Shown here piece after piece: positions 6,417 through 55,860 of a DNA stretch of 64,000 bases. The notes beneath the pieces are model-generated. The model ran no database searches. It saw only the letters and a program-made list of their open reading frames with translations, and was not told the DNA's origin. The translations under genes were made by a program, and so were the position numbers. Source of the DNA: Aedes albopictus. Taxonomy: Eukaryota; Arthropoda; Insecta; Diptera; Culicidae. Position 1 is the stretch's first letter. Each line of letters opens with the position of its first letter. The stretch lies in assembly GCF_035046485.1 (NCBI RefSeq), contig NC_085137.1, forward strand, positions 374,604,706 to 374,668,705, given 5' to 3'.

Positions 6417-6689
6417 AATTATTTCCGTTTAACACCTATGTGCCTGAGCCTCATTTTGCACCCAATTTCAAAACTTTAAAAATCTGATTCTCAGCTGTTT
6501 CTCAACGAAAGTTAATGAAATTTTGACAGTTGATCTCGAAATTCTTCTAGTTTATGTAACCGGGATCATGGTTCCGGAATTTTCCGTTGTTCCGGATTTA
6601 TGGCCGGGGGTACTGGGGTAACCTCCTTATCAGATAGAGGTGCAACCTATAAAGTGCCTTCGAAAACTAGTTACGGCATACCAAACTTC

Positions 6690-7484
6690 ATGATTTTGCA
6701 AAACAAGAGTATTGGACCATATTTCTAGAGATTTCAGATACACTGGCCACTTCTCCGGAAGTTCCGGTTCCAGGTGCCCCCAGGGAAGTGTTAACTTACT
6801 GACCGGTTCTGAAACCTAGCTTGCGACATATCAAACTTTATGATTTTGCAAGACAAGAATATTGGACCATGTTTCCAGAAATTTCGGATATACTGACCAC
6901 TTCTCCGGATGTTCCTGACCTAGGTGCCTCCAGGGAAGTGGCCATTTACTGACCGGTTCTGAAACCTAGCTTGCGACATATCAAACTTCATGATTTTGCA
7001 AAACAAGAGTATTGGGCCATGCTTCTAGAGATTTTGGATACACTGGCCACTTCTCCGGATGTTCCTGACCTAGGTGCCCCCAGGGAAGTGGCCATTTACT
7101 GACCGGTTCTGAAACCTAGCTTGCGACGTATCATTTTTTATGATTTTTCAAAACAAGAGTATTGGATCATGTTCCCAGAAATCAAGAGTATTGGGCCATG
7201 TTTCTAGAGATTTTGAATGTACTGGCCACTTCTCTGGATGTTCGGGAATCCTGGTGCCCCCAGGGAAGTGGCCATTTACTGACCGGTTCTGAAACCTAGT
7301 TTGCGACATATCAAACTTTATGATTTTGCAAAACAAGAGTATTGGACCATATTTCTAGAAATTTCGGATATACTGGCCACTTTTTCGAATGTTCCGGAAA
7401 CCTGGTGCCTCCAGGGAAGTGACACTTTGTGACCGGTTCAGAAACCTAGCTTGCGACATATCAAACTTCATGATTTTGCAAAAC
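6690..7484 (+). repeat. 150-bp tandem array, plus orientation
   Basis: The phrase ATTGGACCAT or ATTGGGCCAT recurs at 6711, 6861, 7011, 7161, 7190 and 7341, giving a 150-bp period with one roughly 30-bp internal duplication near 7161-7190. Each unit carries CTGGCCACTTCTCCGGA, a GGTGCCCCCAGGGAAGTG block and CCGGTTCTGAAACCTAGC. The array stops at about 7484, where it meets its mirror image. Confidence 0.9.
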
Positions 7485-8030
7485 ATGGCCCAATACTCTT
7501 GATTCGCAAAATCATGAAGTTCGATATGTCGCAAGCTAGGTTTTAGAACCGGTCAGAAACTGGCCACATCCTTAGGGGCACCAGGTTTCCGGAACATCCA
7601 GAGAAGTGGTCACTGTATCCGAAATTTCTAAAAACATGGTCCAATACTCTTGTTTTGCAAAATCATGAAGTTTGATATGTCGAAAGCTAGGTTTCAGAAC
7701 CGGTCAGAAAGTGGCCTCTTCCCTGGGGCACCAGGGCCCGGAACATTTGGAGAAGTGGCCGGTGTACCCGAAATCTCCAGAAACATGGTCCAATACTCTT
7801 GTTTTGCAAAATCATGAAGTTTGATATGTCGCAAGCTAGGTTTCAGAACCGGTCAGAAAGTGGCCACTTCCCTGGGGGCACCAGGTTTCCGGAACATCCG
7901 GAGAAGTGGCTAGTATATACGAAATTTCAGGAAACATGGTCCAATACTGTTGTTTTGCAAAATCATGAAGTTTGATATGCCGCAAGCTAGTTTTCGAAGG
8001 CACATTATACGTTGCACCTCTATCTGATAA
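7485..8030 (-). repeat. 150-bp tandem array, inverted orientation
   Basis: The same unit as the adjoining array, now reversed: ATGGTCCAATACT recurs at 7636, 7785 and 7936. Because 150 is divisible by three and the unit lacks stops in one minus-strand frame, long repetitive open frames appear (for example 7836-8108). They are a by-product of the period and have no start or domain that would make them genes. Confidence 0.9.
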
Positions 8031-8208
8031 GGAGGTTACCCCAGTACCCCCGGCCATAAATCCGGAACCATGATCCCGGTTACATAAACTAGAAGGATTT
8101 TGTATCAAAATTTCATTAACTTTCGTTGAGAAACGGCTGACAATCAGATTTTTGAAGTTTTGAAATTGGGTGCAAAATGAGGCTCAGGCACATAGGTGAC
8201 AGGTGTTA

Positions 8209-10984: not shown

Positions 10985-12392
10985 CCCAAGTAACAATCAG
11001 CATGCCTTGAAGATTTATTCATGTTTTATCCTGGTTTTATACGAGCATGTGAAAAAGCTAGTTGTTCTATATTAGTTTTATGTGGTAGTTTTTTACTTTG
11101 CACCTTTGGTATTCCATAAAACTATCATATAACTTCTGCTATAAACATCTTCAGTTAAAGACTAGCAAGTAGTCATGGATTGGTTTTATCACTTATTATA
11201 TACCATTTCAATAAAACTTTCATTTGCGGTTGTTGTCGGAGAGATTTTTTTTGTAAACAAATACATAAAACTGTGAGGCAATGCATAAAACCAACAAAAG
11301 ATTTCGTGGCCGTATGAAATGCTGTGATAAGACCGTTAGTTCTATCATAAGCTCAGTTATGACCAGCTTAGGAGGGTTAGCCATATTGGAGAAATCATCA
11401 GGAACGCAGAGTTTTATCAAAAAAATATGTCGCCTAGCCGGGATAATTTATGTAAATACAGAAAAATCATTACTCAATTTTATGATTTCACGTACAGCGC
11501 TTAAGATCAAACTTAACGATTCAACACGTTTCCGTCATATTATTTTCAGAAAAATTACATATTGTTTTTGAAACTCCGCTATGTTGAATAAACCTTTTTC
11601 ACGCCCAATTCTACCGAGTATATTAAATGCATTTAACTTCCTATTAATTCACAGTTTGTGTGGCGCACTTATTTTTCGTCATTATTACAGTCACATTCAT
11701 CACAAATTTCCCGTGGCATGTCTCCTGACACGTATTAAATAGGAAAACAAACCTGAATTCCAAATCGGCATCTTTCCAATTGATGGCTGGATAAATAACC
11801 AAGCAATTTACTCTGACGATCGAACATTGATAGTGAAAAATTATCAAAACAAATATTTGACAAGTCAGAATATGGTTATATTTAGAAGGTTTATAAAACT
11901 AAGATATAACCTGAAATCCTAAGCCGGTCTGCATACGAAGTCCTGTAGATCATAATAAGGCTGGGCCAACTAGCCAGATCGTGGACTTTTGGAGGCATAA
12001 AGGAGCTCGAGAGTATTTTCAAGTCGGCATCAATGGTTTTATGGTTAGGGTTTTTAAATCGCTAAAAAACTTCGATAAAATCAAAATTGTTACTTGGGAA
12101 TTTACTCTGACGATCGAACATTGATAGTGAAAAATTATCAAAACAAATATTTGACAAGTCAGAATATGGTTATATTTAGAAGGTTTATAAAACTAAGATA
12201 TAACCTGAAATCCTAAGCCGGTCTGCATACGAAGTCCTGTAGATCATAATAAGGCTGGGCCAACTAGCCAGATCGTGGACTTTTGGAGGCATAAAGGAGC
12301 TCGAGAGTATTTTCAAGTCGGCATCAATGGTTTTATGGTTAGGGTTTTTAAATCGCATAAAAACTTCGATAAAATCAAAATTGTTACTTGGG
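10985..12392. mobile_element. 1.4-kb noncoding element with CCCAAGTAACAAT ends
   Basis: Begins CCCAAGTAACAAT and ends ATTGTTACTTGGG; AA flanks both sides but may not be the full duplication. The right-end segment is present twice in tandem (see the separate entry), so the element carries two right termini. Open frames at 11281-11571 (plus) and 11220-11420 (minus) overlap and are unrecognised. Superfamily is not assigned. Confidence 0.75.
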
Positions 12393-12393
12393 A
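11806..12393 (+). repeat. 294-bp near-identical tandem duplication of an element end
   Basis: 11806-12099 and 12100-12393 are direct repeats at an offset of exactly 294 bp. They differ at only about two positions, for example ATCGCTAAAAAAC against ATCGCATAAAAAC. Each copy ends with the terminal motif ATTGTTACTTGGG. The near identity implies a recent duplication compared with the decayed elements around it. Confidence 0.92.
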
Positions 12394-12703
12394 AGTGCCT
12401 ACCTCATGTTTCCATGGGTCAATCGATGACAAAGACCGCTAGCTAAGAGCTTTGTACTAAGCTGGTGGTACAGCTTGGGCACTGCTGTCCTTGTGACTTC
12501 AGCTAGATTGAGGATGTACGTATCAAGCGTCAGTTTATCAAGGAGGTGCGGCTCGAACAGTCTAATCTGGCATCTAGCAGCTGGCAGGCCCACACTGATT
12601 AAAAGGGGACCTTAAGCCAACTTCCTACTCTGTCCCCGAAACCTAAAAACAAAAACCGGAATTGAAAGATTACGAACAGATTTAGCGCAAAGCAACAAGC
12701 AAT

Positions 12704-16936: not shown

Positions 16937-17319
16937 AGCATAACCACTAGCGTGCGCAGGGTTCTTGCTTAGGGGGGGCACCATAATAATGATGTATGAT
17001 CATGGTGCAAAATAAAATTATGGTGTTACACCCACCCAATATGAATTCCCAAGTAGGGGTTTCAACATGTTGTGGTGCTAACATCGCCAAGTACTTCATA
17101 TTGGAATTCTAGAGAAGGCTTCGGATGGTGATGATTTCAAGGCATTATGAAACTTTAATATGAAGTCACTATCTCGACTCTTATAAAATTTTATAAACGC
17201 ATCAAATACAATGGAGAATATCGAGAAAATTATTGTCGTTGTGAAAGAATTTTGATCCTGGACAATTAGTGATGCTAGAATTGGAGAATGTCAGAATTTT
17301 TAGATAGAACATTTTGATC

Positions 17320-20300
17320 GGAATCCAGAGATTCCTCCAGGATTTCTCCAAATATTCGTGCATGATTCCTCTAGGGATTTCCCCAAAAAATCTTCCAATA
17401 ATTCCTTCAGAAATTCCTCCAGGAAGTCTCAAATATTTCTTCAGGAATTCCTCAAATAATTCCTTCAAGAATTCCTCCATATTCTTCCAAAATTACCTCC
17501 AGGAATTCCTCCTGAAATTTTTTTCAGAAAAAAAATCCTCTAGGAATGTCTGCCAGAATTCCCCCAATATTTCCTCCAGGGATTCCTCTAGGAATTGCTC
17601 CACGAAATCCCCCAGAAAATTCTAAAGGAATTTCTGAAGTATATTTTCCTGGAATTCCTCGAGAAATTTCTACAGGAGTTCCTTCAGAAAATTATCCAGG
17701 AAATTCTCAACGAATTTCTTCAGGAATTCCTGAATCAATGAATTATTTCAAAAAATCCTTCTTAAATTCCTCAACAAATTCCTCTAGAAATTCCTTCAGT
17801 AATTTCTCGAAAAATAACGCCAGAAATTCCTCCAGGGATTTCTCCAGAAATCCTCTAGGAATTTCTGCCAGAATTTCTCCAGAGAATCCTAAAAAAATGT
17901 CTCCTGGAACTCTTCCAAAAATTTTGCGAGGAATCTCTACAGGATATCCTCCACAGATTCCTCCAGTAATTTCTCCAGGATTTTTTCCAGGATTTTTTTT
18001 TTCAGGAATTCCTCCAGGGATTCAAAAATGAATTTCTTCAGAAATTCATCCACATATTCCATTAGAAATTCCTCGAGGGGTTTCTTCAGACATTTCTTTA
18101 GAAATTCCTCCAATATTGAACTAGTGACTTCTTTCAGGAATTCCTCCACGGATTCCTGCAGAAAATTCTAAAGGAATTTCTTCCAGAACTCTTCCAGGAA
18201 TACCTCCAGGGAATCCTCCAGGAATTTCTTTAGGATTTTTTCCAAAAATTTCATTGGGAATTTCTCCAGGGATTCATTACTGAATTTCTCCAGAAATTCC
18301 TCAGAATCCTCCAGAAATTCCACCAGGAATTCTTTCAGAAATTTGTCGAGGAAGAACTCCTAATATTCCTCCAGCAATTGCTCTAGGAATTTCTGCCTGA
18401 GTCCTCCAAGAATGTCTCCCGGAACCCTTCCAAGAATTTCTCGAGGAATTCCGCAAGAAATTTGTCCAGGAAATCCTCCACGGATTCCTTCAGGAATTTC
18501 TTCAGGATTTTTTCCAGCAATTTTTTCAAGAATTCCTGCAGGAATTCATTCATAAATTTCTTCAGAAATTCCTCAAAAAAATCCTCCAGGTATTCTTTCA
18601 CAATTTGCTCGAGTAGTACCTTCAGACATTACTCCGAGAAGCCTTCAGGGATTTCTCCCCGAAATTCATCCATGAACTCCACCAGAAAATGCTAAAGTCA
18701 TTTCACCCGAAACTCTTCCAGGAATTCCTCCAGGAGTTCCTCGAATGATTCCACGAGAAATTCCACCAGGGAATCCTCCATGGAATCCCCTAGGAATTTC
18801 TCCAGGATTTTTTCCTGAAATTTCTTCAGAAATTCCTCCAGGGATGTTATAATGAATGTCATCAGAAATTCCTCATATAATTCCTCTGGTAAATATTCCA
18901 ATAATTCCTCCAGAGATTCCGCCTGAAATTTTCTTTTAGGAATGACTGTCAGAATTCCTACAATATTTCTTCTGAGGATTTCTCTAAGAATTGATCCTCG
19001 CATTCCTTCCAGAAATTCCTCCTAGCATTCCTCGAAAAATTCCCCCATGGATTCCTCCAGGAAATTCTCGAGGCATTTCTTCAGGTATTCCTCCGAGGAT
19101 TCATCCATGAATTTCTTCAGAAATTTCGCAAAAATTCGCATTTGTGGGGCCGAGCGGTTAGCGGCGGCAGTCGTTTAGGCGTCTCGTAAGCCTCGGAGTG
19201 TGGGTTCGATTCACGCTCCAGTCGGGGAAAACTTTTCGTCGAACTGAAAATTTTCCACTGGGCCACTGGGTGTTATATGTGTTGTCCGTTGTCGAATGTT
19301 TGTAATGTTCAGTCTGTAGAGGCCGCAAGGTCGAAGACGGAGTAATTGTCTTTTTTTTTTCTTTTTTTTTTAAATTCCTCCGGGAATTCTTTCAGAAATT
19401 TCTTAAGGAAGAGCGCCAGAAATTCTACCAGGAACTCCTCATGGGATTCCTTTAAAAAATCCTCTGGGAATTTTCACCTAAACTACAGGGATTTCTCATT
19501 GCATTCCTCAAAGAATTCCTCCAGAACTTTTTCTAGGAGTTTCTCAAGGAGTTCCTGCAGGGATTCGTTGAAAAATTTCTTCAGAAATTCTTGGAAAAAA
19601 AATCCTGCAGAAATTCCTCCAGAAAATCCTTCAGAAATTTCTCGAGGAGTTCCTTCAGAAATTTCTCCATGAAGCCTCATATATTTCTCCAGAATTTTCC
19701 CAAATAATTCCTCCGGGAATTCCTCCAGTAAATACTCCAGAAATTTCTTCAGAATTATCTCCAGGAATTCCTCCAGAATTACCTCCAGGAATTCCTTCAG
19801 AGATTCCTTATGAAATTTTTTCTAGAAAAAAATCCTCTAGGAATGTCTGCCAGAATTTCTTCAATATATCTTCCAGGGATTCTTCAAGGAATTGCTCTAC
19901 AGATTTCTCCAGAAAATCATAAACGAATTTCTCCCGAAACTCTTCCAGGAATTCCTCCTGGAATTTCTCGAGCAATTCTTCCATGGATTCCTCCAGGAAA
20001 TTCTAAAGGAAATTCTCAAGGACTTCTAGGAATTCTTCCAGGAATTCTTCTAGGAATACCTCTAGCGATACTTCCATGGAATCCTCATGAAATATCTCCA
20101 GGGATTGCTGCCAGAATTTCTACAGAAAATTCTCCAAGGATTTCTGCCAGAATTCTTCCAATATTGTCTCCAGCTCCAGGGATTTTTCCAGAAATTCCTC
20201 CAGAAAATCCTAAAAGAATTTTTCCCAGATCTTTTCCGGGAATTTCTCTAGTAATTCATCCAGAGATTTCTCCATGGATTCCTTCGAAATTTCTTCGGGA

Positions 20301-23300
20301 ATTCATCCACGAGTTTCTTCAGAAATTGCTAAAAAAATTCCTTTATAAATTCCTCGAGGAGTTCTTGCAGACATTCCTCCAGGAAGCTTTAAATATTTGT
20401 CCAGAAATGCCTTAAAGAATTCATCCAGGAATTTCTCTAGTTATTCCTCTAAGAATTCATAGATGAATTCCTCCAAAAAAATCTGGAGGAATTTATCCAG
20501 AAATACCTCCCGGAATGCAAACATGGATTCTTCCAGAAATTTCTCCAGAGATTCCTGAAGAAAATCATCCACTAATTCCTCCAGGAATGTTTCGCAAAAA
20601 AAATACCTCAAAGAATTCTTTCGGGAATTCCTCCAGGAATTCCTCCAGGAATTCCTCCATTCATTCCTTCAAAAATTTCTTCAGTAATTCCATCTTGAAT
20701 TTCTACAGGGATTCATCCAGGAATTCCTGCTCGGATTTCTCCAGAAAATCCTGAAGAAATTTCTCCCGGAGCTCTTCCATGAATTCCTCGAGAATTTTTT
20801 CCAGGGACTTCTACAGAATTTTCTTTTCTAGAAATTTTCCAAGAATCTCTCCAGATATTTTTTCTAGGACAACTATAAAAAATTTTCTAGTTTTTGCTCC
20901 AGAAAATCAAAAAAAAAATCTTCATGGGTACCCCCAAGAATTCCTCTAGGCATTCCTCTATTAGTTTATCCACGGATTTCTCCAGAAAACACTTCTCCCG
21001 GAACTGTTTCAGGAATTCCTCACGGAATTCCTCGAAAAATTTCTCCAGGGATTCCTCCATGGATTTCGCCAGGAATTCCATCAATGAATTTTTTCAGATA
21101 TTCCTCAAAAATCCCTCTAGGAAATCTTACAGAAATTGCTCGAGGAGTTCCTTAAATCATTCCTCCAGGAAGCCGCAAATATTTTTCCAGAAATTTTTCA
21201 AAGAATTCCTTCATTTTTTCAGGAATTTCTCCAGAAAAATCTTTAAGGATTCTTCCAGAAATTTATCTAGGAATTCTCCCGGGAATCATCCTTGAATTCC
21301 TTCACAGATTCCTTCAGGAATCCCTCCTAGGATTGCAGCAGGGATTTTTCCCAGATCTTTTCTGAGTATTTCTCTAGGAATTCCTTTAGGGATTTCTCCA
21401 TGGATTCCTCCAGGAATTTCTTCAGGAATTCATCCAGGAGTTCATCCATGAATTTCCTCCGGAAATACTCAAAAAAATCCTTCACAAATTCCTCGAGGAG
21501 TTCCTCTAGACATTCCTCCAGGAAGCCTTAAATATTTGTCCAAAATTTCCTTAAATAATTCATCCAGGAATTTCTCTAGTTATTTCATCAAAAAATTCTT
21601 CAGGAATTTATCCAGAAATACCTCCCGGAATGCAAACATGGATTCCTCCAGGAATTTCTCCAAAGATTCCTCAGGAAAATCTTCCAGGAATTTCTCCAGG
21701 AATGTTTCGCAAAAAACACCTCAAAGAATTCTTTCGGAAATTGCTCCAGGAATTCCTCCATTATTCCTTCAAAAATTCCTTCGTTAATTGCATCTTGAAA
21801 ACCTCCGGGAATTTCTACAGAGATTCCTCCAGGAACTTCTGCAACGACTCCTGAAGGAATTCCTGCTCGGATTTCTCCAGAAAATTCTGAAGAAATTTCT
21901 CCCGGAACTCTTCCAGGAATTCCTCGAAAAATTTCTCCAGGGATTTCTACAGACATTTTTTCATGATTTTTTTTCTGGAATTTTTCAAGGAATCTCTCCA
22001 GAAATTTCTCCTGGGACAACTGTAAAAATTTCTCAATTAATTGCTCCAGAAAATCATCTAAAAATTCTTCATGGATTCCTACAAAAATTCCTCTAGAATT
22101 TATCCATGAAATTCTCCAGAAAAAAAAACCTTCTCCTGGAATTGTTCCAGGAATTCCTCGAAAAATTTCTTCAGGCATTCCTCCATGGTTTTAACCAGGA
22201 ATTTCTCCAAGAATTTCTTCAGGAATTCCTCAAAAATCCCTCTAGGAATTCATTTGCTCGAGGAGTTCGTTTAATCATTCCAGGAAGCCGCAAATATTTT
22301 TCCAGAATTTTTTCAAAGAATTCCTTCAGGAAATCCTCCAGAAATTCTTCCAGAAATTCCTACATTTTTTTAGGAATTTCTTCAAAAAAACCTCTAGGGA
22401 TTCTTCCAGAAGTTTCTCTAGTAATTCTCCAAAGATTCATCCTTGAATTCCTTTACGGATTCCTTCAGGAATTCCTCCTAGGATTTCAGCAGGGATTTCT
22501 CCAGGAATTTTCCAAAGCTTTCTCTAGGATTTCCTCTATGAATATCTCGAGGGATTCAGCCAAGTATTCCTCCTAAAAATCCTCCAGAAATTCTACCAAT
22601 AATTCTCGAAAGAATGCCTCCAGAAATTCCTCCAAGATTGTTTTCATGGATTCTTCCAAAAAATCCTTCAGGAATACCTCCACTGATTCCTCCAGAAATT
22701 GCTCCGCAAATTCCTCCAGAGATTTCTCCAGTAATTTCTGCGAGGATTCGTCATTGAATTTCTCGAGTAATTCTTCCACAAATTCATGCAGGAATTTTTC
22801 CAAAAAATCCTTCTGGAATTTCTCCAGCAATACCTCTTGGAATTCCTCCATGATTTATTTCATGGATTCCTTCTGTTACCCCTCCAGTGTTTCATCCTGT
22901 AATTCCTTCACGGATTCCTTCAGGAATTCCTCCAGGGATTATATCAGGGATTTCTCCAGGAATTTCTCATAGCTTCTTCCAGGAATTCTACTAGAAACTC
23001 CTCCAAATGTCCCTCCAGAAATTTCCTCAGGGATTTCTGCAGAAATTCCTCCGGACATTCTTCCAGAAGTTCCTCCAGGAATTCTTACAAGGAAACCTCC
23101 AGGTATTCTTCCAAGGATTCCTTCAGGAATGCCTTCAGAGATTGCTCCAGAAATTCTTCCAGGAATTCCTCCAGGGTTTCTTCCAGGAATGCCTCCAGAG
23201 TTTACTCCAGGAAATCCTCCAGGGGTTCGTCAATGACCCCTGCTGGAACTCTTCAAGAAATTTGTCCAGGAGGTTTTCGAAATATTTCTCCACAAATTCC

Positions 23301-23615
23301 TCTATGAATTCTTTCACGAATTCCTCTACGGATTCCCCCAGGAAATTCTTCAAGGATTTCTTTAGGAATGCCTCCAGGGAATTCCTTCAATATTTTTTCC
23401 AGCAATTCCTTTAGTAGTTCCTCCTGCAAATTCTACAGGAATTTCTAGACTCCTCTTCCAGTTTTTGAGAGCTTCTTTCAAGAATTCTTTCAAGAACTTC
23501 TTTAGTAATGCCTTCAGGGATTCCTCCAGAAAGTCCTTCAAGAATTCCCCCTGAAATTTCTCCAGGGATTTCTCCTGGAATGCCTCCACGGATTACTCCA
23601 GATATTTCTCTAGCT
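17320..23615 (+). repeat. 6.3-kb 12-bp satellite (GAATTCCTCCAG family)
   Basis: The least diverged runs (20630-20660, for example) show an exact 12-bp period GAATTCCTCCAG; elsewhere units vary by substitution and indel. The unit contains GAATTC and lacks stops in most frames, so all six frames carry open stretches made of 4-residue repeats (NSSR, GIPP and EFLQ on plus; EFLE and GGIP on minus). None is a gene. The array is interrupted by a SINE at about 19143-19373. Confidence 0.95.
19143..19373 (+). mobile_element. tRNA-derived SINE (family B), plus
   Basis: tRNA-like head with GAGCGGTTAGCGGC (A box) and GTGGGTTCGATTC (B box), a body containing GAAAATTTTCCACTGGGCCA and a T-rich end. The same family occurs in reverse at 38645-38880 and as a relic at 47493-47600. 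The first bases of the head are shortened relative to the 38.8-kb copy. No clear target-site duplication, partly because the surrounding DNA is itself repetitive. Confidence 0.8.
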
Positions 23616-23679
23616 GGTAAAGTGATTCTTAAAATGATCCACGGAATGCTTTTTTGATGCGCGAATCACAAAATGGTAT

Positions 23680-26345
23680 ATACAATTCAATTGTGGATGA
23701 TACAATGAACACCAAGAAGGTGTATAGAATTTTAAAAAGGTGTGTGATGTGAGTATGGTTTATTATATACCTTAATGATCAGAGGAACGTCGAGATAATG
23801 CATGCGTGGCAAGTAATTGCATTTTGATTTATAGATTGCTAAGATAAAACATGTGATTTGGAGATGGTGTAAACATAAAAATGTTGGTGCTACATAAAAA
23901 TCAAATTGCGTGAGGCAATAAAGGTGCATGATGTCACCGTGGTGTATAGGATCTTCTGGTAACACTGAGTTCATTGTTATGGTGCATTGAATGCTAATAT
24001 GGAGCGTGTCATTCAAAGATGGTGCTTGATGTCAGTATGCTGCATTAGAGTTGACATCGTACAAGAAATGCTATTTCGATGTACGAAACTTCATACAATA
24101 ATAATGGTGCAATAGATGCCTAGATGATATAGTGAACGCCACGATTACGCATTAAAAGCTTTAGTAATGCATGAAATTTAACGATGGTGCATTATTTCGC
24201 AATTAGACACATATTTGAGTCAAAGATGGTGCGTGAGATGTTGCCTAGATGATTATGTGAACATCATGGTGGTGCATGATGTCTGTATGGTGCATTAGCT
24301 TCACCATGATTCTGTTATACTCGTCATGTTTCATATTAAGGTGCACTTGTAATTCGTGCAAAGGTGCAGGAAACTCAATGTGACCCAGAAATCAACATGT
24401 TCCAGGTACGTGGAATACTATTTTGTATGCGAAATGCCAAAATGGTGCATCAAATTCAAATGTAAGCCACATTATGATGGTGCATAAGATACCTAGATGG
24501 TATAATGAATGCCAAAATGGTGCATGGAAGGCTTGGAAGAAGGCGTATGATGCTTGTGAGCTGCATTAGTTGTCACCGTTATTGAAAGATTATCAACATG
24601 TTGCATGGTTAGGTGCACGAATTGCAAAAATGATGCATAGAATACAAAATAAAAGTATTTTATGTGATGCTCACAACATAATGGTGCATCAGATGCCTAA
24701 ATGATATAATAAACGCTGGTATGGTGCTTGGAAAGCTTTGATGGTGCATGAAATTTAATTATGGTGCATATCAGTATGATGCATTAGATTCCTAGTTGAT
24801 TAAAATATAGTGCATGAGATCAGCATAATGCGTGGATGCGTAGATCATTCTGTGGACGCTTCGAAGAAGGTACATGATGTTAGTGTGCTGTATTAGTTGT
24901 CACCGTTATTCAGCGACACTCGACATTGTGTATGGCTAGGTGCACGAATTGCAAAAAATGGTGCTTGGAATTTAATGTGGTGCCAAAGTCACCATGGTTC
25001 ACGTACATGGATTACAGTTTTGGAATACGAAATGCCAAAATGGTACATGTTATTCGAATATGGTGCTGACATCACTGATAAGTTAAAATATGGTGCATAA
25101 GATTAGCCTAAAAATGATTCCGAGAACATCATTATTATGCATGAGATACTAAGAAATTGTATGTATCAGGGGTGCATTTGTTGCCACCATGATTCAGTGA
25201 TTCTCAACATTGGGTGGTTAGATCCAAAATTAAAAATTGCAAAAATGATGCATAGAATTTAATGTGGTGCGGAAGTCAACATGGATCAGGTACATGGAAT
25301 ACAATTGGGTGTACGATATGGCAAAATCGAGCTTATGAAATTCAAATGTGAATTAAATGCTTAGATGACGCGTGAGATGGTGCTTAGATATTTATGTGAT
25401 CATCATGGTGGTACATGGAATGCAACGGAGCTACATGATGTCTGTATGGTGCATTAGTTTTACCATGATTCAGTTATACTCAACAAAATCCATATGTAGG
25501 TGCACGAATTGCAAAAATGATGCAGGAAACTCAATGCGGCACAGAAATCAACATAGTCCAGGTACAAGGAATGCTATTTTGAATGCGAAATGCCAAAATG
25601 GTGCATCAAATTCACTTGTGAACCACATCATAATGGTGCATAAGATGCCAAGATGATATAGTGAATGCCAAAATGGTGGTTGGAAAGCTTTGAAGAAGGT
25701 GCATGATACTAGATGATGCATTAGTTGTCACCGTTTTTCAAAGCTTATGGTTAGGTGCACGAATTACAAAAGTGATGCTCAGTGATATGATAAACGCTGA
25801 AATGGTGCTTGAAGAGCTGTGATGGTGCATGAAATTTCATGATGGTGCATATCAGTATGAGGTATTAGATACTTAATAGATAAAATGACATTTCATGCGA
25901 TCATCATAATGCGTGGATACCTAGATCATTCTGTGGACACCATGATGGTGCATTGAAAGCTTTGAAGAAGGTGCATGATGTTAGTGTGCTGTATTAGTCG
26001 CCTGGTCACCGTTATTCAGTGATACTCGTTATTTTGCATGGCTAGGTGCATGAATTGCAAAAATGGTGCTTAGAATTCAATGTGGTGCCGAAGTCACCAT
26101 GGTTCACGTACATGGAATACAGTTTTGGAATACGAAATGCCAAAATGGTGCATGTTTTTCAAATGTGGTGCTGACATCACTGATTAGTTAGAAGATGGTG
26201 CGTGAGTTTAGGTTAGATGATTTTGAGAACATCATAGTTGTGCATGAGATACTCAGAAATTGTATGTGTCAATGGTGCACCATAGCTCAGTGATTCTCAA
26301 CATTGCGTGGTAAGATCCAAGGTTCAAGAATTGCAAAAATGGTGC
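23680..26345 (+). repeat. ATGGTGC satellite with ~280-bp and ~1.1-kb periods
   Basis: About 30 or more occurrences of ATGGTGC are visible. A longer phrase based on GCACGAATTGCAAAAA recurs near 24350, 24611, 24941, 25235, 25500, 25757, 26045 and 26322, about every 260-330 bp. Every fourth unit matches best: GTTCACGTACATGGA at 24997 and 26102 (1,105 apart), CAGAAATCAAC at 24386 and 25542 (1,156 apart), and a long phrase at 25122-25217 matching 26231-26318. Hence four subunits form one higher-order repeat. No coding content. Confidence 0.85.
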
Positions 26346-26365
26346 ATAGATTTTTTTATAGAAGG

Positions 26366-26400
26366 GGGGGCACGTGCCCCCCCTTGCCCCCCCCTGTGCA
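26366..26400. other. G/C homopolymer palindrome at hAT right end
   Basis: GGGGGGGCACGTGCCCCCCC is a perfect 20-bp palindrome followed by TTG and another C8 run. It belongs to the subterminal part of the giant hAT. On the left end only the G7CAC half is present, so the right end carries an extra inverted half. Confidence 0.85.
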
Positions 26401-26426
26401 CGCTAGTGAGCATAACGTGCATCGTG

Positions 26427-29334: not shown

Positions 29335-29336
29335 TA

Positions 29337-31480
29337 CAGGTATGTTCCGTTTTTATCAACACGGTACGCGATTTTCAGTTGACAAAAACGGAATAGTGAT
29401 AAAAACGGAATGATTTTCTTTGACAAAATATTTTGCAACATTTTAATATGAATTGAAAGTTTTACTGTAGAACACATAACAAAAGTAAAAAATATGCAGT
29501 TTACTATGAAATTTAATTGTTTTTTAATGTCTTTTAGCACATCTTGGTTGCACAGTTCAAATAACATTTTTTTGAATGTGACGCCGACAAGAGGTTTTCA
29601 CCACATTTGTGACCACATTTTTGGAAATCTATTTTCGTTGAACGCAAGAATGACACATGTTACAGTTCTAGTAACCGGATCGACGTTTTAAAATATGACA
29701 TACTTTCAGGAATGGTTAATCTCCAGGATCGTAATTTCGATATCCTAACAAAAAGGATATGTTCACATCCTTCCGGAAGGCATTTCTCCACGAATATCAT
29801 CTTCACAGATTCCTGTATATGTTTCGTCCAGGATAATTTTAGGACATCTCCAGGATTTTTTCTAAGCAATCACTTGTAACTTCTCCAGAATATTGGAAGA
29901 AGTTCCTCCATAATTCTTCTAGGTTACCGTGTACCATGCCGATTGTTTATCTTTTGGAATTCGATAAGAATTTTTAGAGAAATTTCTCCTCGGATCAACC
30001 TAGATGTTTCTTTGTAAATTTCTCCTAGAATTTCATTGGGGATCCCTTCAAATATTTTACCAGGAATTGGAATTTGTTAACCTTCCTTATGCATTATGTT
30101 GGGAATACTTGACGTAGTGTACGGTTTGGGTCTAGAATGGCCCTAATGCACAAGGTGGGCTAAGAAAATCATTCTGGGATTTAACCTAGACATCCTGTTG
30201 AAATTCATCCAAAAGTTGCTCTTAAGATTCGCCAGGATTTTACTTTTGAAATTGACGATTATCCGGAGTAGGGTTTGGCGCTTCCCAAAAATATATCGTG
30301 CAAACGGTATGTTGAAAGAATCTGAAAATATTGACTGATTACTAATCAATGTTACCTTGACAAAATGTCCATATTTCAGCTTTTTAGAGCATTCTATTCC
30401 CCAGATATGTGTTTGAAAAGCATCAGATCCCGGCTCTGGATAATCGAGTCCGACCTGTATAGGAGCTTCTAAATTTCCTTAGAATTTCCTACGGGAATTC
30501 TTTCAAGATTACTTTCTGAAATCCCTCCAGAAAATATTTCTCCAAAGGTTCTTCCTGGGGTTCCTCCAGAAATTCTTTCTGTGATTTCTTCAACAGTTTT
30601 TCCTAAAATTTCATCAGAAGTGTTTTCTTTGATTCTTTAAAGAGTTTCTTACAATATTTCTTCCTGGAATGTCCTCCATCCATTTTTTTAAAGGATTCTT
30701 ACATAACCTTGATTTGGTATTTATGCGTAATAGAAACAGCTACACCTAATGGAACTTTTATTAGGAATACTTCCCAGAGATTTTCCAAGAGGATTCCATC
30801 TTTCATCTTTGTTATTTCCCCATGACTATTGGATGAATCAGCCTTGGGCTGAAAATCTCGCAAATAAAGATAATATATCAATGATTCTCCCCGATTTCTT
30901 ACTGCGTTTACTGGGAATTTCCCAGAAGTGTCTAGTAATCTTCCAGAAATTCTTTCCTCAAATCCTAAAGAAGTTTCTTCAGAAAGTCCTCCTGATATTC
31001 TTTATAGAAATCTCGGGGAAGTTATTCCTGAGAATCCTCCAGATGTTCCTTGTGGGAATCCTTGAGAAATTCCTTCTAGGAATCCTGTATAAGTTTTTTC
31101 AAGAAATATTCCAATTGTACCTCGAAGGATACTTTTAGAACTGATGGGGTTTCTTTAGGTTTTTTTTTTTCAATTCTTAGTTTCTTCTGGGAACCCTTCA
31201 GGAGTTGGTGGAGAGATCCCCAGATTGATTTCCAAGATCCTAGGCTCCTCTTTCCTAGAGAAACTTATTTCTGAAAGACTAATTCACCTAAAGGAACTTC
31301 TGAATTATTTCCTGGCGATTTCTCAGAAGGAATCCATTAAGAAATCTGGAGGAATACAAGGTAGAATCACTAGTGGGAATTACTGAAGAAAACCATGGAA
31401 AACAAGAGATATATCCTGTAGAAATTTAGGCCCCATCGGAAAGAAATAGCGTCATTGGTGGTTTCTTCAAATTCATTCAT
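29337..31480 (+). mobile_element. CAGGTATGTTCCG element, copy 1 (right end lost)
   Basis: Starts CAGGTATGTTCCG after TA (29335-29336). It is homologous, in reverse, to 51294-55858. Shared landmarks include GACGCCGACAAGAGG, the AAAAAGGATATGTTCACA region, a mini-MITE at 30077, GCGTAATAGAAACAGC, and a final block TAGGCCCCATCGG near 31435. The interior 29880-31340 is degenerate 12-mer satellite (TTCCTCCAGAAATTC type). The expected right terminus is absent; homology fades at about 31480. Confidence 0.8.
30077..30161. mobile_element. mini-MITE (TTAACCTTCC family), decayed copy
   Basis: Begins TTAACCTTCCTTATGCATTA and contains GGGTCTAGAATGGCCC, matching the 91-bp element at 49657-49747. The right end has decayed to GGGCTAAG. 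The same insertion is present at 53007-53091 in the sister copy of the host element, so it predates their divergence. Confidence 0.7.
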
Positions 31481-31693
31481 GGATGCACTAGGTCAACAAT
31501 AAGTCAAGTTTTTGGAACAAAGCTTGTTCGACCTTGATCCAAAACAATTGTACTAAACTTGCGAACGATTAGCTGCGCCCCGTATACAACATTTCAATTG
31601 AAACTTGTTCGGAATTCAATATGGGAAAATGCACTTTTTTGTATTTTTCTTAGAAATGCAGAAAAGTTGTCTAAAACAGTGAAGAAACTTATA
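31481..31693. other. short unassigned segment
   Basis: Contains TTTTTGGAACAAAGCTTGTTC, partly palindromic, and AT-rich sequence ending in the TA target of the next element (31692-31693). Probably a fragment of another MITE. Confidence 0.4.
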
Positions 31694-33519: not shown

Positions 33520-33784
33520 TACGCTTGATAACACTAGTTTACAGCATTTTTGAACTCGGTAAGCTGATGATCATTTTTGGTGCAGAATCATGCCCTGAGC
33601 TCGAAAACGCGAAGGAAAAAAATTACAGTAGAGCGGAAATTTTTTCGACTTTCCATACAAGGTTGATGATTTGAAATCGATTTTTGTTCTATTTTTATGC
33701 AAAGTCGCTCACTTCAAACAACTCATTCTCCTAAATCAATGCTTCGATTGAGCTGAAAATTTTACTGTAACTCGTCCACATATG

Positions 33785-35204
33785 GTCGGGGTTCTGCTAA
33801 ACCGAACCAAAGACCATTTTTTGAAAAATTTAGTTTTCTTAACCATTAGATGAAGAATATGATGATCTTCTTTTCGTGTAAAAATCCAGTAATTCTGACA
33901 GCTCTTCGTGGAGTAAATTCAAAATTTCTGTTTGGCAGAACATACAAAAAATAAAATTGCATCCAACCAGAGTGAACTGTAAACCATTCCATAGAATCAG
34001 CGAAATATTTTAGTTTTGGTCCAAATGATGAACATTTCAAGTTTTCCTCATCGCTGTCAGATTTCTAACTTCTAACCGACTCATAGTAACAATCTGTGAG
34101 AGAATTTAACACGTAATCAAAAATACGGGTGTTGGAGGATCGATTTGGATTTCGATGGCGTTGATCGCCATTTTTCCAAATCACAGTCAGCTAGACCGAA
34201 CCAAATCCACTGCATTTAAAAATCAATTTATTCTCAACAATACAAAGACGAACTGGCTTTGAATACATGCGTTATGTTGATACACCTCATACTGATTATT
34301 TAACCCAGGAGCCGTCATTGAACAACAAGGCTAATAAGAATAATAAAGCTTGAAAAAAATCAAACACTTGGTTCGCTTTGGCTGATCGAAAAATGGCGTT
34401 TTCACGAAAACCATGCTAGAGAAGAATGTTTAAAACTTGATTCAGACTTAACAACTGACCTTCAGCTAAGTAAAATGGCCTAGAGGTAACGTGCTTGGTT
34501 ATCACTTAAAGGACCCAAGTTCGAATCTCTTTAATATTTTCGATTTTTTTTTGTCTTAGTTCACTTTGGCAGATCATTTTCATGGTTTTCTTCGACCAGT
34601 ATAAATTTGAAGTACACAAATTGCTCCATTTTCACATCTCAGGACATCAGGACATGCAAGGACATCATTTGACATAATCACTCTTGTTCTGTGCCTGCAC
34701 ATGCACCGCCTATAAAAAAAAACATAGATGGGAAGGGCTGAGCTGGGAGGGCTTCCGCCGTTTACATTTCACACTATTTTGAGACCTTTGCGCTACCATA
34801 CTACGCGTCCTCTCTGGTTCATGTAAAGGATTGTGAGTGATATCGATTTCAACTTCATAGACACTGAAAAATCGAGATTTTTTTATCACATTCCGACTGG
34901 TTTTCTCTGAAACAAAGAAACACAGTCAGCCACACTGAACTATAAACCATATTCCAATGTTTTTGTTCAGCCAGAGTGAACTGAGTGCAAAGTACTGAGA
35001 AATTAAATGGTATTATATCAATGATTTTAAATAATTTACATGTTTTCTTCATCTCTGATGGTTAATAAAGGCTTGTAAGTTACATGTGTGCGAAAAAGTT
35101 TCAAATAATCTTAGCTGTTGTTTATTTCTGAGTGGTTGAACTTGAAGCTTAATTATCTCGGAATAAACTTTTTGGCGCTTAGTTCGGTTTAGCAGAACCC
35201 CGGC
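33785..35204. mobile_element. 1.42-kb nested element with GTTCTGCTAAACCGAAC ends
   Basis: Begins GTCGGGGTTCTGCTAAACCG and ends with the near reverse complement, flanked by a CATATG duplication (33779-33784 and 35205-35210). Copies of the subterminal motif, roughly CAGCYARASYGAAC, recur inside in both directions near 33950, 34188, 34367, 34556, 34925 and 34967. No transposase is recognisable. A tRNA-like segment lies near 34470-34535. Superfamily is uncertain; a 6-bp palindromic duplication is unusual. Confidence 0.85.
34470..34535 (+). other. tRNA-like segment inside a MITE
   Basis: GGCCTAGAGGTAACGTGC (A-box-like) and CCAAGTTCGAATCTC (B-box-like) occur about 40 bases apart, with GGTTATCACTTAAAGG between. 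It resembles the minus-strand segment at 14455-14525, which is also inside a MITE. No acceptor stem is convincing, so it is not called as a tRNA gene. Confidence 0.45.
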
Positions 35205-35647
35205 CATATGATATGTCAAATGAACGTCGAGAAAGAATTTTTAAGTTGGTTTTACATACATACATTTCTTCAAAAATTTTTGGGAATTTTACTAAAATTT
35301 ATGAAGATCGTCCCTAAAACTCGCCAATATCTTGAATTTCATCAATCTGACGCAAAACCTGCATGCAGATGATCGAATGGTATTGTATTCAGCTTTTAAT
35401 TTATGGAAAAAGATTTAAAATTTGTTGAACAAAACGCAATATATTTGAATTTTAGTAAATTACATATTTTAAAAAGTTACAAAACTCGATTTTGAGCTGA
35501 AACTCAAAAACTGTTCTACTTTAAATTTTTTGAAGGTCGGTTTCGAAATCAGCACTAAATTGTGCTTCAAAAATTTTGGTCGTTGACAGAAGTTCACGAC
35601 TTTCGTTTTATTTTGTAAACTTGTGTAATTAGCAAGATTTTTATATA

Positions 35648-35665
35648 TGCAGGTTTTCTTCTTCT

Positions 35666-35742
<77 letters not shown>

Positions 35743-35900
35743 TTCTTCTTCTTCTTCTTCTTCTTCTTCTTCTTCTTCTTCTTCTTCTTCTTCTTCTTCT
35801 TCTTCTTCTTCTTCTTCTTCTTCTTCTCCTTCTTCTTCTTCTTCTTCGTCTTCTTCGTCTTCTTCTTCTTCTTCTTCTTCTTCTTCTTCTTCTTCGTCTT

Positions 35901-35931
<31 letters not shown>

Positions 35932-36175
35932 TTCTTCTTCTTCTTCTTCTTCTTCTTCTTCTTCTTCTTCTTCTTCTTCTTCTTCTTCTTCTTCTTCTTC
36001 TTCTTCTTCTTCTTCTTCTTCTTCTGCTTCTTCTGCTTCTTCTGCTTCTTCTTCTTCTTCTTCTTCTTCTTCTTCTTCTGCTGCTGCTCCTTCTTCTTCT
36101 TCTGCTTCTTCTGCTTCTTCTTCTTCGTCTTCTTCTTCTTCTTCTTCTTCTTCTTCTTTTTCTTCTTCTTCTTGT
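35648..36175 (+). repeat. (TTC)n microsatellite, ~525 bp
   Basis: A near-pure TTC run with scattered TCC, TCG, TGC and TAT variants. It yields homopolymeric open frames (Phe on plus; Lys or Glu on minus, up to 253 codons) that are not genes. It begins about 20 bp after MITE copy 2. Confidence 0.97.
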
Positions 36176-37550: not shown

Positions 37551-38263
37551 TCATCGAGGATGGAAGGGAATGTTAGTAAGACAAACGTTGTTATAAAGAC
37601 CGCGAATCGCTGCATCTCCACGTTTGTCTCAGGAAGGATTTTTTTGTTAGTAGGGTAAGGTACATTGTCAGTCCGGGAGTCACCTATGGTTGGTGATATG
37701 ATTTGACAATGGATCAATATACACAAACCGCCGTTAACAACCGACCACTTTTCGACGCAAGAACTAGCCAAAAAGAAAATTCTATCGCGCGTCTCCACTC
37801 CACTAGGGAGCAGAAACCTTTAGTCTATTCCACACAGAAATACACTGAACGCGACTCACTTGTCGGCGCCCGGATTTTTTCTCGACCGGCGAACCCGAAG
37901 TAACATTTTTCACTCTTTTGTGTAAATGCAAAAAATGAAAGAAAATATTTATTATCAACTAAAAGTGTATTGGAAACTAGCGCCGAAGGGAAGCGAAAAA
38001 TTCGGAACCGACTCGAACCACGGCGCGCGCACACTCGTCCCGTCGTCGGAGCCCCGCAGAGAGAAGAGGAAAAAAAAAATCGCAAAAATCTAGCAAAGCG
38101 AGCGCGCGAAACTTTGCTGCTGCCGAACTACCGCACACTACTAACTGCTTGGCGTCCCGTCGTCGGAGCCCCGCAGAGAGCTGAAAAAATCTTGATTGTT
38201 CACAAATTATATGAAAACGTGAGTATATTAAAATCGCGGTCATAAGAGCAAACAAGTAAGATA
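37551..38263 (-). other. possible retroelement UTR or promoter region, second part
   Basis: 37551-37820 continues the segment on the other side of the hAT. 37830-38263 is CpG-rich in places and contains a 28-bp exact direct repeat, beginning CGTCCCGTCGTCGGAGCC, at 38036-38063 and 38153-38180. Opposed frames (minus 37825-38085, plus 37970-38245) are unrecognised. No gene is called. Confidence 0.35.
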
Positions 38264-39180: not shown

Positions 39181-39189
39181 AATCGATAA

Positions 39190-51291: not shown

Positions 51292-53006
51292 TACAGGTAT
51301 GTTCCGTTTTTGTCACTATCCGTTATTATCACTATCCATTTTTGTCACTATCCGATTTCGTCAACATTTCATTCCGTTTTTGTCAACACTAAAGTTTTTG
51401 TCAAATTTGTCCCCTCGAACACGAGTTATTTATAGTTTAACATTAATCTTGAGGCAATCTATGAGTGAATTTGAAGCAACCACCAATGATGACATAGAAT
51501 ACGTATACGCTACAATAGCTTTGAACGCAGTTCAAATTCAACTGTAGATAATGTTATTTCATGCTTTCTCTCACGTATAATTTTACTTCTTATTTGAACA
51601 TGAGAAAAATTAAACCAATAGTCCGATAGAAAAATTACTCTAGCTCTACGTACCAACTGGAACTTGGCCTGCCTCTTCAAGTGTTCTTCGAAAACTTGAA
51701 CAGTTCGGGGTTTTGCCCGTCATTTCCTAAATTTTTACACAACAATCATGCCTACAAAACTTTTTTTAAGTGCAATAAATTCCATGCGGTTTTTTACACG
51801 ATTTGCTTGAAATTACGCGATGTGCTGAATTCTTCTCTTCTGGTCGCTATTTCTTTTCGACGGGGCTCAAATTTCAACCAGAGATCTCTCTTGTCATCCT
51901 TGATACCCTGTCCATTTTTTTCCGTCCGAAACTACTATATTCACTAGGTAAACTGGAGATTCCTATAGATTTTTATCTAGGATTTCATCTTTCGATTGCT
52001 CTAAAAATGAAATCTCGGTTTCCTTCAGTAATTTCTACTGGCGATTGTACCTTGTATCCCTCCATATTATTTAATGGATTTCTTCTGAGATATATCGTTC
52101 AGAAGTCTCTTTAGGTGAATTTGGAGTTAAGTCTTCCAGAAATATGTTTCTCTAGGAAAGATGAGTCTAGGAACTTGACAAACGATCTGGGGATTTTTCC
52201 AGCAACTACTGAAGGGTTCCCAGAAGAATCTGAGGATTCCCAAAAAATCCTAAAGAAATCCTATCAATTCTGAACTTATACAGGATTCCTAGAAGGAGTT
52301 TCTCAAGGCTTCACACCAGGAAATTCTGGAGGATTCTCAGGAATAATTCCCCGGAGATTTCTACACAGAACATCAGGAAGACTCCCTGAAGAAATTCCTG
52401 GAGGGTTTGAGGAAAGAATTCCTGGAAGATTACTAGACTAAACTACTGGGATATTCCCAGGAAACGCAGTAAGAAGTCGGGGAGAATTATTATTATATTA
52501 CCTTTTTTAACGAGATTGTCAGCCCCAGGCTGGTTCATCTACTAATCATGGGAAAATAACCAAGATGAAAGATAGAATCCTCTTGGAAGTATTTATTATA
52601 AAAGTTCCAGCAGGTGTAGGTGTTTTTACTGCGCATAAATGCCAAAACAAAGTCCTGTAGGAATCCTTATAAGAAATTTTTGGATGGAGGACATTCCAGG
52701 GAAAAATATCATAAGAAACTCTTTAAAATCCAAGAAAGAACTTCTGATGAGATTCTAGAAAAAATGTTGAAGGAATCCCAGAAATAAATTTTAGAGGAAC
52801 CCCAGAATAAATCCCTGAAGAAATATCAGAAAAATGTTCTGGGGGGATTTCAAAAAGTTATCTTGGAAGAATTCCCGCAGGAAATTCTGAAGGAACGGAG
52901 ATTCTCCTATATTTCAAAAATAAAATCTTGGTGAATCTCCAAAGCAACTCAAGTTGGATTAATTTGAACAGGATGTCTAGGTTAAATCCCAAAATGATTT
53001 TCTTAG

Positions 53007-53091
53007 CCCACCTTGTGCATTAGGGTCATTCTAGACCCAAACTGTACACTACGTCAGCGGGTTGTTCCCATCATAATGCATAAGGAAGGTT
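53007..53091. mobile_element. mini-MITE (TTAACCTTCC family) in copy 2
   Basis: GGGTCATTCTAGACCC and TAATGCATAAGGAAGGTTAA match the family at 49657. It sits at the same place as the copy at 30077 in the sister element, so it was present before the two copies separated. Confidence 0.75.
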
Positions 53092-53668
53092 AATAAATTC
53101 CATTTCCTGGTGGAATATTTAAAGGGATCCCTAAAGAAACTCCAGGAGAAATTAAAAAAAAATACATTTAGGTTGATCCGAGAAGGAATTTCTGAAGAAA
53201 TCATAAGGGGCAAAACTTCTTTTCTCTAAAAATTCTTACCGAATTTCAAAAGATTAACAAGCGGCATGGTACAAGGTATCCTAGAAGAATTCTGGAGGAT
53301 CTTCTTGGAAAATCCAATATTCTAGAAAAGTTACAAGTGCTTGTTCAGAAAGATTTCTGGAGATTTCCTAAAAGTATCCTAAACGAAACTTTTATAGGAA
53401 TCTGTGCAGATGATACTCGTTGAGGAATGCCTTCCGGAAGGAAATAAACATATCCCTTTTTGTTAGGATATCGAAAATATGTTCCTGAAGATTAATAATT
53501 CCTGGAAGTCTGTCATGTTTTAAAACGTCGATCCGGGTACTGGAACTGTGATATATGTCATTCTTGCGTTCAACGAAAATAAATTTCCAAGAATGTGGTC
53601 ACAAATGTGGTGAAAACCTCTTGTCGGCGTAACAGTCAGAAAACTTTTGAATTTGAACTGGTTGCAGA

Positions 53669-55645
53669 CAGAGCCGTAGCGTGGGGTTGGCCAGGTTGGC
53701 CCCCGCCAAGGGCGCCAGCCTCTAAGGGGCGCCGAAAAGGTAAAAGGCTAGAAGGAATATTATGATGCTATTGTTTTCTTGTATGTTACCAAGACTTCAA
53801 AATATCTAAGATTGATCGAGTGTTTTTTACATTACGTTATTCTCAAAAATTCGTTCGCTAGATTATTTATCATGATGTTACCTGGGAATTTAGCTTGTTT
53901 TTTTTTTACTTTGGAAGTTATTTTAGTTGTTTTTTTAACGAGCAAGCAAAATCAATAAGTTTTCAAAATTCTAGTGAAAGTTTTTCTCTGAAAATTACTG
54001 GAAACTTATTTATTGACATATTTTAGAGTGTTTTTAACAAGTATTTTAAATGAAAAATATTCAGACGACGCTGTTCATTTCCTTCAAATAAATAAAATAT
54101 TTCGGGAATTTCTTCATAAATTTCACCAGGTATTTCTTCGGATTTTTTGCTGGGCTTCTTTAAGCAAATCTTTCAAAAACTATTTCAGAATTTTCTCAAG
54201 AAATTTCTTTAAAAACATTTCAAAAAATTTCTCCAGAAATTCTCTTAAAATCTTATATTAAAAATTATTAAAAAAAAAAAAGCAAATAAAGAATTCTTCT
54301 GGAGATTCTTACTAAAAATTCTCGAAGAATCCCTTTAGAAATGCCTTCAGGGAGGTTTTCAGGAAGTTATCTAGGGATTTGTTCAGGAATAAGTCAAAGG
54401 ATTCCTCTCGACATTTATACATGGATATTTAATAATTTCCTTCAATGGATTCCTGCAAAAAATGTGTATAAGGATTACTAAATAACCCTTCAATAGATTT
54501 CTTTAGTAATTCCTCCATGGATTCCTATGAAAAATTCTGTAGATATTCCATTAGAAATCACTTCAGGGATTCCTTCAGAAGTCCCTCTGAGAATGAATTA
54601 TTTCAGAAATTCTTCTAGGAGTTTCTTAAAATAAAATCTTATATGAAACTGTATAATGCTTACTAGGGATTGATCCATAAATTTCTGCTAGAATTTCACT
54701 AGAAAACTTTTCATGAATGTCTTCATAAATTCCTCCATAAAATTATAAATTTGGAATAATTCAGAAATTTTTACAGGTTTTCCGTTAGAAAATCTGCAAT
54801 TGACTTCATCCAAAATTTCTCCAAAGCTTTCTTCTGAATGCCATTCATAGATTTCTTCAGAAATTCCTCCAAAAATTCCTTAAGAAACTTTTTCAGAGAT
54901 TCCTTCAAATATTCTGCCAAGTTTTTTTAACTCTTCTAATGGTCCTCTACAAACTATTACGGACATTAGCATATCAGGCATTTCATTACGAATTGCTCCA
55001 TGAATTCCTGCAAAAAAATACTCCTTAAATTCCATTTAGAATGCTTACTTAAATTTCTTGAAAATTTTAATCATTTATTCATGCGGATAAATGCAGGAAT
55101 TCCTCCGCAATCTCTTTCATAATTTCATTCAATGAATCCAGCAAAAATTCTTCCAGAGATTTCAACAAAACTCATCCTTCAGGAATTTCTCCTGGTATTA
55201 CTTCATATCCATTTTTGTCTAATGATTTCTGAAAATTTTCTAAGAAATATTTTGATTGAACTTCAGAAGAAACTTGTGGTGAAGTTATTAGGAAATTCTG
55301 GTAAAACCAGTTGAAGCTATAGCCAAAAAATAGTAAAAACGTTTGAGGATTTCTGAATGCTCCTGAAATTCAATTCAGTATTTTTAAAAATAAAATAAAA
55401 AAACTAAGATTTTCTTTAGAAATGTATGCATCATACATTTTAAGAATTTGAAATGTCATTTTTAACTATTGTGCTGGTCTAAGTATGATTCTTGAAATGC
55501 AAAATCTGTTCGTACTCTTTGAAAACTTCGAAAACGTACACATAACTTTGAATAAACAAATTTAGCAAAATAATAATGTCTAATTGTCGTGGGGCGCCAA
55601 TCTGGATGCTTGCCAAGGGCGCCGTGGGACCACGCTACGGCTCTG
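53669..55645. mobile_element. 1,977-bp hAT-type noncoding element
   Basis: Terminal inverted repeats CAGAGCCGTAGCGTGG (perfect, 16 bp), followed by GGGCGCC-type motifs near both ends. Perfect 8-bp duplication GTTGCAGA at 53661-53668 and 55646-55653. The interior (54100-55250) is degenerate TTCCTCCAGAAATTC satellite, with the opposite strand sense to the satellite of the element it entered. No transposase recognised. Confidence 0.95.
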
Positions 55646-55860
55646 GTTGCAGATGTGCTAAAATTAATGTCTTTAACAATTAAATTTCATAGTAAACAGC
55701 ATATTTTTACTTTTGGAATGTGTTCTAAAGTAAAACTTTCAATTCATAATAAAATGTTGCAAAATATTTTGTCAAAGAAAATTATTCCGTTTTTATCACT
55801 ATTCCGTTTTTGTCAACTGAAAATCGTGCACCATGTTGATAAAAACGGAACATACCTGTA

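Follow-up and report, generated by a model that had tools for sequence, protein, structure and literature searches.

A 9.5-kb segment of the Aedes albopictus genome (element 1) probably arrived in one insertion event, as a hAT-like, non-autonomous DNA transposon that already contained two repeat arrays. The segment lies in a stretch of 64,000 nucleotides of contig NC_085137.1 (assembly GCF_035046485.1, positions 374,604,706 to 374,668,705), here called the window, and all coordinates below are those of the window. If element 1 did jump in with its repeats inside, transposons would be able to take satellite DNA along to other sites. The origin of dispersed satellite arrays in euchromatin is an open question, and if one satellite rides several transposon families, transposition and not local expansion would account for its scatter across the genome, and every fresh insertion could start an array.

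The limits of element 1, its perfect 8-bp duplication and its matching ends had been reported in a preliminary description of the window, and they are borne out (Table 1). The duplication AGCATAAC is identical at all 8 positions between the two sides, and the inverted ends CACTAGCGTGCGCAGGG and CACTAGCGTGCACAGGG match at 16 of 17 positions. The description had also noted G-run subterminal sequence. The block GGGGGGGCAC is common to both ends, with the G-run palindrome GGGGGGGCACGTGCCCCCCC present in addition at the right end. Arrays running past the supposed termini at orthologous loci would, according to the same description, speak against the element; in the window itself both arrays end inside them, the first beginning 379 bp inside the left end and the second halting about 53 bp short of the right end.

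Table 1. Position of element 1 and its parts, and of the other elements carrying the 12-bp repeat, in the window
Feature	Position	Strand	Remark
Left target-site duplication (8 bp), AGCATAAC	16937..16944	.	sequence read
Element 1, whole putative hAT-like non-autonomous insertion	16945..26408	+	9464 bp
Left terminal inverted repeat, CACTAGCGTGCGCAGGG	16945..16961	+	GGGGGGGCAC follows at 16972
Left subterminal sequence	16962..17323	+	379 bp lie outside the arrays when the left end is counted in
Degenerate 12-bp array, ATTCCTCCAGGA	17324..23613	+	5 model segments, 6021 bp
tRNA-like SINE breaking the 12-bp array	about 19138..19371	+	84% identical to a copy at 38642-38856 (minus strand)
TGGTGCA-rich region	23616..26355	+	2740 bp, 29% of element 1; limits set from sequence
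Right-end G-run block, GGGGGGGCACGTGCCCCCCC, and the C-run after it	26364..26391	.	20-bp palindrome
Right terminal inverted repeat, reverse complement CACTAGCGTGCACAGGG	26392..26408	-	
Right target-site duplication, AGCATAAC	26409..26416	.	sequence read
Partial, diverged copy of element 3	29337..31484	-	without element 2; in-window empty-site paralog
Element 3, TA-flanked, host of element 2	51294..55858	.	identical 18-bp inverted ends, CAGGTATGTTCCGTTTTT
Element 2 target-site duplication, GTTGCAGA	53661-53668 and 55646-55653		
Element 2, second putative hAT-like insertion	53669..55645	+	1977 bp; ends CAGAGCCGTAG

The larger part of the interior is a degenerate array of a 12-bp unit, called with a 12-state cyclic model trained on the array itself and covering 64% of element 1 (6021/9464 bp). 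The model finds no segment to the left of the element, and the next one to the right only at 29,966. The array agrees with its consensus at a fraction of about 0.74 of positions, where random sequence fitted in the same way reaches 0.49. Compared with itself, it has an identity of 0.56 when shifted by 12 positions and of 0.54 when shifted by 24, the mean over lags 1-2600 being 0.27, and for the larger piece of the array the lag-12 identity (0.56) compares with a maximum of 0.297 in 500 shuffles. A SINE interrupts the array, which is therefore older than the SINE insertion; at the second copy of this SINE (38642-38856), ARAGORN calls a tRNA-Arg. A copy of the SINE is hosted by one member of a dispersed family with inverted ends like ACACTAGTTTAC, of which the 64 kb contain four copies in both orientations (5533-6419, 33527-35630, 38260-39184 and 46136-46766).

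The rest of the repeated interior is of a different nature. The preliminary description saw essentially two satellite arrays and no gene in element 1: repeat arrays do make up about 93% of the interior and the 12-bp array stands, but a SINE-like insert was overlooked, and the second array is not a simple tandem one. It contains a unit of about 1.1 kb that occurs twice, at 24224-25260 and again at 25363-26354, and Tandem Repeats Finder reported nothing in it at periods of up to 500. The two copies are 75% identical by BLASTN and 86% identical in a MAFFT alignment (134 mismatches in 946 positions). TGGTGC is found in this region 35 times on the plus strand and once on the minus strand, where base composition predicts 0.34 occurrences and the triplets of the region itself predict 8.4. 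Outside the arrays, the left 379 bp hold 5 TGGTG/CACCA motifs, as many as were seen in 1 of 2000 shuffles, and the TGGTGC motifs there mostly point the same way as those in the right region and are not mirrored. Homology between the left end and the right region was considered and rejected, the best local match (score 31) being reached by 4 of 60 shuffles and not significant. No plasmid sequence matched the right region in a distant BLASTN search. The two arrays have higher-order repeats of near-equal length, about 1.1 kb, in sequences that look unrelated (offsets chiefly of 1115-1151 in the 12-bp array, with up to 91% identity over 120 nt, and of 1094-1139 in the right region); fewer like windows of the 12-bp array are found at offsets of 272, 300, 455, 1851 and 2297.

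That element 1 contains no gene, as originally described, holds for Pfam in six frames (X at stops, matches up to E = 1), where no hAT, BED or other transposase family was matched. DUF445 alone passed its curated cut-off; three of the six frames matched it, and we read this as an artefact of periodic sequence. The long open frames of the array were likewise rejected as a gene, the 12-mer consensus being by eye free of stops in all frames and DUF445 fitting its periodic composition. Ten of the 97 open frames of at least 90 aa in the window were scanned with Pfam and 0/10 matched at E up to 0.1, and the 20 Rfam matches found between 16900 and 26500 (E up to 1) all lie under their gathering scores.

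The order of events can be approached by comparing divergences. Units of the 12-bp array differ at about 44% of positions (lag 12); the duplication has no change and the ends have a single difference. Under a divergence of 0.44, the probability of an 8/8 duplication surviving is 0.010 and that of at least 16 of the 17 end bases surviving is 0.001; at a divergence of 0.1, the duplication would survive with a probability of 0.43. Because its units are so much more diverged than the duplication and the ends, the 12-bp array was likely already degenerate and inside element 1 when the latter landed, a contrast of ages that presumes equal neutral rates. The contrast is weaker for the right region, given the 86% identity of its copies, and for the later-duplicated stretches of the 12-bp array (those with up to 91% identity over 120 nt). 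Later duplications did occur, as the higher-order repeats of about 1.1 kb in both arrays indicate, and the right-region copies are only moderately diverged, both of which would suit a short hAT-like element that landed first and whose arrays then expanded in place by slippage and unequal exchange. We nevertheless regard such a history as unlikely, since the degeneracy of the 12-bp array, taken overall, greatly exceeds that of the duplication and ends, and since element 2 carries the same 12-mer independently, which places this repeat in another mobile element of the window. For the insertion of element 1 with its arrays inside, the earlier proposal that satellite DNA was carried as a unit stands in part as an observation, there being one delimited insertion with arrays inside its ends; carriage itself is suggested by the divergence of the array relative to the duplication and by element 2, for which an empty-site paralog exists.

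Element 2 came out of a search for 8-bp duplications with inverted ends. GGGCGCC blocks lie just inside both of its ends, and 47% of its length (938/1977 bp) belongs to 4 segments of the 12-mer within 54101-55205, an interval that, gaps included, is 62% identical to the 12-mer consensus and has a lag-12 identity of 0.457 against a maximum of 0.336 in 500 shuffles. Its host, an old repeat designated element 3, has 12-mer segments of its own (423 bp within 52272-53153; 59% to consensus with gaps included, lag-12 identity 0.340 against a shuffle maximum of 0.314). The partial copy of element 3 aligns to it in two long pieces at 82% and 77% and at its right end at 91%. As the alignment stops, at 82%, at 53660 and resumes, at 91%, from 55651, the copy is without element 2 to within a few bases. 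The far end of this copy was not found, and its segments are assigned to it by alignment to element 3; they are 57% identical to the 12-mer consensus over 29966-31140 (gaps included), with a lag-12 identity of 0.349 over 29966-31402 against a shuffle maximum of 0.305. At the junction (within 29335-29560) the copy reads TGCAACCAA, as opposed to the GTTGCA of a clean empty site; TGCAACCAA resembles a remnant of an inverted duplication, possibly an excision footprint or a later change.

The 16 segments of the 12-mer in the window thus fall in element 1 (5), in element 2 (4) and in element 3 with its partial copy (7), and the model found 0 segments in five order-1 shuffles of the remaining window sequence. 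This distribution cannot count as a blind test, because the limits for elements 2 and 3 were looked for once the segments had been seen. That elements 1 and 2 exchanged arrays directly was considered and dropped: their match score of 141 compares with a mean of 146 for 15 sequences emitted by the profile, which indicates no specific kinship. The same is true of element 3 and the array of element 1 (55 against a mean of 58 from the 12-mer profile), where nothing beyond the common consensus is seen.

Other repeats were observed in the window. A foldback-type element at 6433-8205, with TTAA on both sides, has inverted arms containing arrays of a tandem repeat with a unit of about 150 bp (3.5 and 3.4 copies according to Tandem Repeats Finder, together with an overlapping 180-bp row), and is another transposon with packaged tandem repeats; an array related to its own is found at 49802-50886. 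A 294-bp unit is tandemly duplicated at 11805-12394, probably recently (two copies, 99% identical), and a TTC microsatellite of about 173 units, with 93% matches, occupies 35656-36173. Two direct repeats of 241 bp (56764-57004 and 60458-60698), 98% identical and with starts 3.7 kb apart, may flank a non-autonomous retroelement as its long terminal repeats.

Judged from its sequence, element 1 would be hAT-like, and we do not call it a member of the hAT superfamily: of the hAT features compared, the 8-bp duplication and short ends agree with the original hAT assignment, and the transposase and end consensus do not. The hAT elements, divided into the Ac, Buster and Tip groups, are described as having ends of 10-25 bp, 8-bp duplications and a usual length of 2.5-5 kb (PMC3942097); the 8/8 duplication and 17-bp ends of element 1 are alike in this, whereas its 9.5 kb are two to four times the usual length. 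A transposase with hATC and BED domains is not found in element 1, and a non-autonomous copy would lack one. The consensus of hAT ends is YARNG; the CACTA end of element 1 fits it at positions 1-2 only, and the CAGAG end of element 2 fits it throughout. This partial fit, with no Pfam transposase, leaves some room for the ends to be those of a P-type element or of another superfamily duplicating 8 bp, an attribution that we find doubtful. P elements do also make 8-bp duplications, but their ends in Anopheles gambiae measure 27-31 bp (PMC1562414), against 17 bp here, and Merlin ends begin with GG (PMC8101967), against CA here; the lengths of ends and duplications fit hAT (PMC3942097), and element 2, in the same window, begins with CAGAG and shares with element 1 a G/C-rich stretch immediately inward of the ends.

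In 30 order-1 random sequences, an 8-bp repeat combined with inverted ends of 11 bp (at most 1 mismatch) was found 21 times, or about 0.7 times in each, so that this combination alone is weak evidence for an insertion; the real window has 30 rows of it, many of them longer inverted repeats or arrays. In the window the 17-bp end of element 1 occurs at just its two sites (at most 2 mismatches), and the first 11 bases have 10 more matches of a chance-like kind (same tolerance). In a scan of genome contigs, 22 prokaryote stretches contain the 17-bp end, and these are read as chance, as 16 fixed bases in 257 billion bases on two strands lead one to expect, by base counts, on the order of 100; exact scans of viral contigs with three strings, taken respectively from the end, the 12-mer array and the right region, found 0 matches. 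That unrelated ends or solo fragments came to surround a genomic satellite through coincidence or misassembly is highly improbable, for although assemblies can fail in long degenerate arrays and one window was examined, the 8-bp duplication abutting a 17-bp inverted end (at most 1 mismatch) occurred in 0 of the 30 random sequences, the window contains no N and so no marked gap (an assembly join inside the arrays being among the things that would refute the element according to the preliminary description), and the units vary from one to the next, making collapse less likely.

For element 1 as a single insertion, a mechanism can be proposed. The ends, together with the GGGGGGGCAC and TGGTGC subterminal motifs, would be recognised by an enzyme encoded at another site, which would cut and paste the whole block. 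The TGGTGCA region may have grown by amplification of subterminal sequence containing putative binding sites, an origin suggested by the excess of the same motif at the left end. Slippage or unequal exchange, probably while gaps left by excision were being repaired, would have made the arrays longer over the history of the transposon lineage, until repeats made up nearly the whole interior. Sister copies with the same ends and differing array lengths are predicted. The unusual length of element 1, the unmirrored course of its TGGTGC motifs and the non-significant match between its left end and right region tell against this account. Repeated subterminal motifs are known in the hAT element Hermes, whose left end is located by the binding of BED domains to such motifs, arranged differently at each end (PMC10368747), and the lopsided TGGTGC of element 1 would fit a role of this kind. 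One could go further and see in the ATTCCTCCAGGA 12-mer a hitch-hiking satellite using unrelated cut-and-paste superfamilies as its vehicles (two hAT-like and one TA-duplicating within 64 kb), and in the TGGTGC array a runaway amplification of transposase-binding sites that captures the enzyme for a giant non-autonomous element; we consider this extension improbable.

The view that satellites are normally thought to expand in place, from which the preliminary description started, is overstated, transposon-borne satellites having been treated in at least a review and a study of Merlin elements (PMC9659126, PMC8101967). For Aedes aegypti, a map paper reports about 5% tandem repeats, which are not linked to particular transposons in the available excerpts of it (PMC4021624); in those of the 2018 Aedes genome paper, tandem repeats appear only in the methods and references (PMC6421076). 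Among open-access articles on satellites or tandem repeats with hAT, Aedes, mosquitoes or MITEs, and on hAT ends and subterminal repeats, judged by their titles, none describes element 1; on gap repair together with satellites no article came up. Articles containing the literal end or 12-mer strings are, by their titles and the starts of their abstracts, not mosquito or transposon work, and the strings were taken for primers or the like.

The tandem repeats of element 1 lie wholly inside transposon ends, as is the case for satellite-bearing non-autonomous DNA transposons. It does not have the long arms of a foldback element, both arrays being direct and the inverted ends 17 bp long. Helitrons and Helentrons are not known to have target-site duplications or terminal inverted repeats, and element 1 has both. 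The 1723 element of Xenopus, which is long, interspersed and variable in length, makes 8-bp duplications and contains tandem repeats, and would resemble element 1 in these respects. MITEs, Helentrons and the foldback element Tetris are listed as satellite carriers in a review, the satellite-bearing MITEs including miDNA4 and Xmix of Xenopus and the lepidopteran (GTCY)n (PMC9659126). Like element 1, such MITEs are non-autonomous, have tandem repeats inside their ends and can spread the seed of a satellite; they measure about 400 bp according to the review, against 9.5 kb and two unrelated arrays in this copy of element 1 (PMC9659126). Tetris and the satellite TIR-220 of Drosophila virilis also tie the repeats of a DNA transposon to a satellite, which in that case comes from the inverted ends (entered as 'TIR' in the review's table), whereas the repeats of element 1 fill its interior and its ends are short (PMC9659126). 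Merlin elements have ends beginning with GG, an 8-bp duplication and internal tandem repeats, with a 12-bp unit in one copy, and their authors suggest a spread of proto-satellites (PMC8101967); unlike element 1, whose ends begin with CA and in which no Pfam transposase is matched, the Merlin families of that study have a transposase domain. Transposon-borne satellites are therefore an already established kind, of which element 1 is a large variant, distinguished by its scale (9.5 kb against 2.5-5 kb for hAT elements), by its two unrelated arrays and by a 12-mer common to three elements with different ends.
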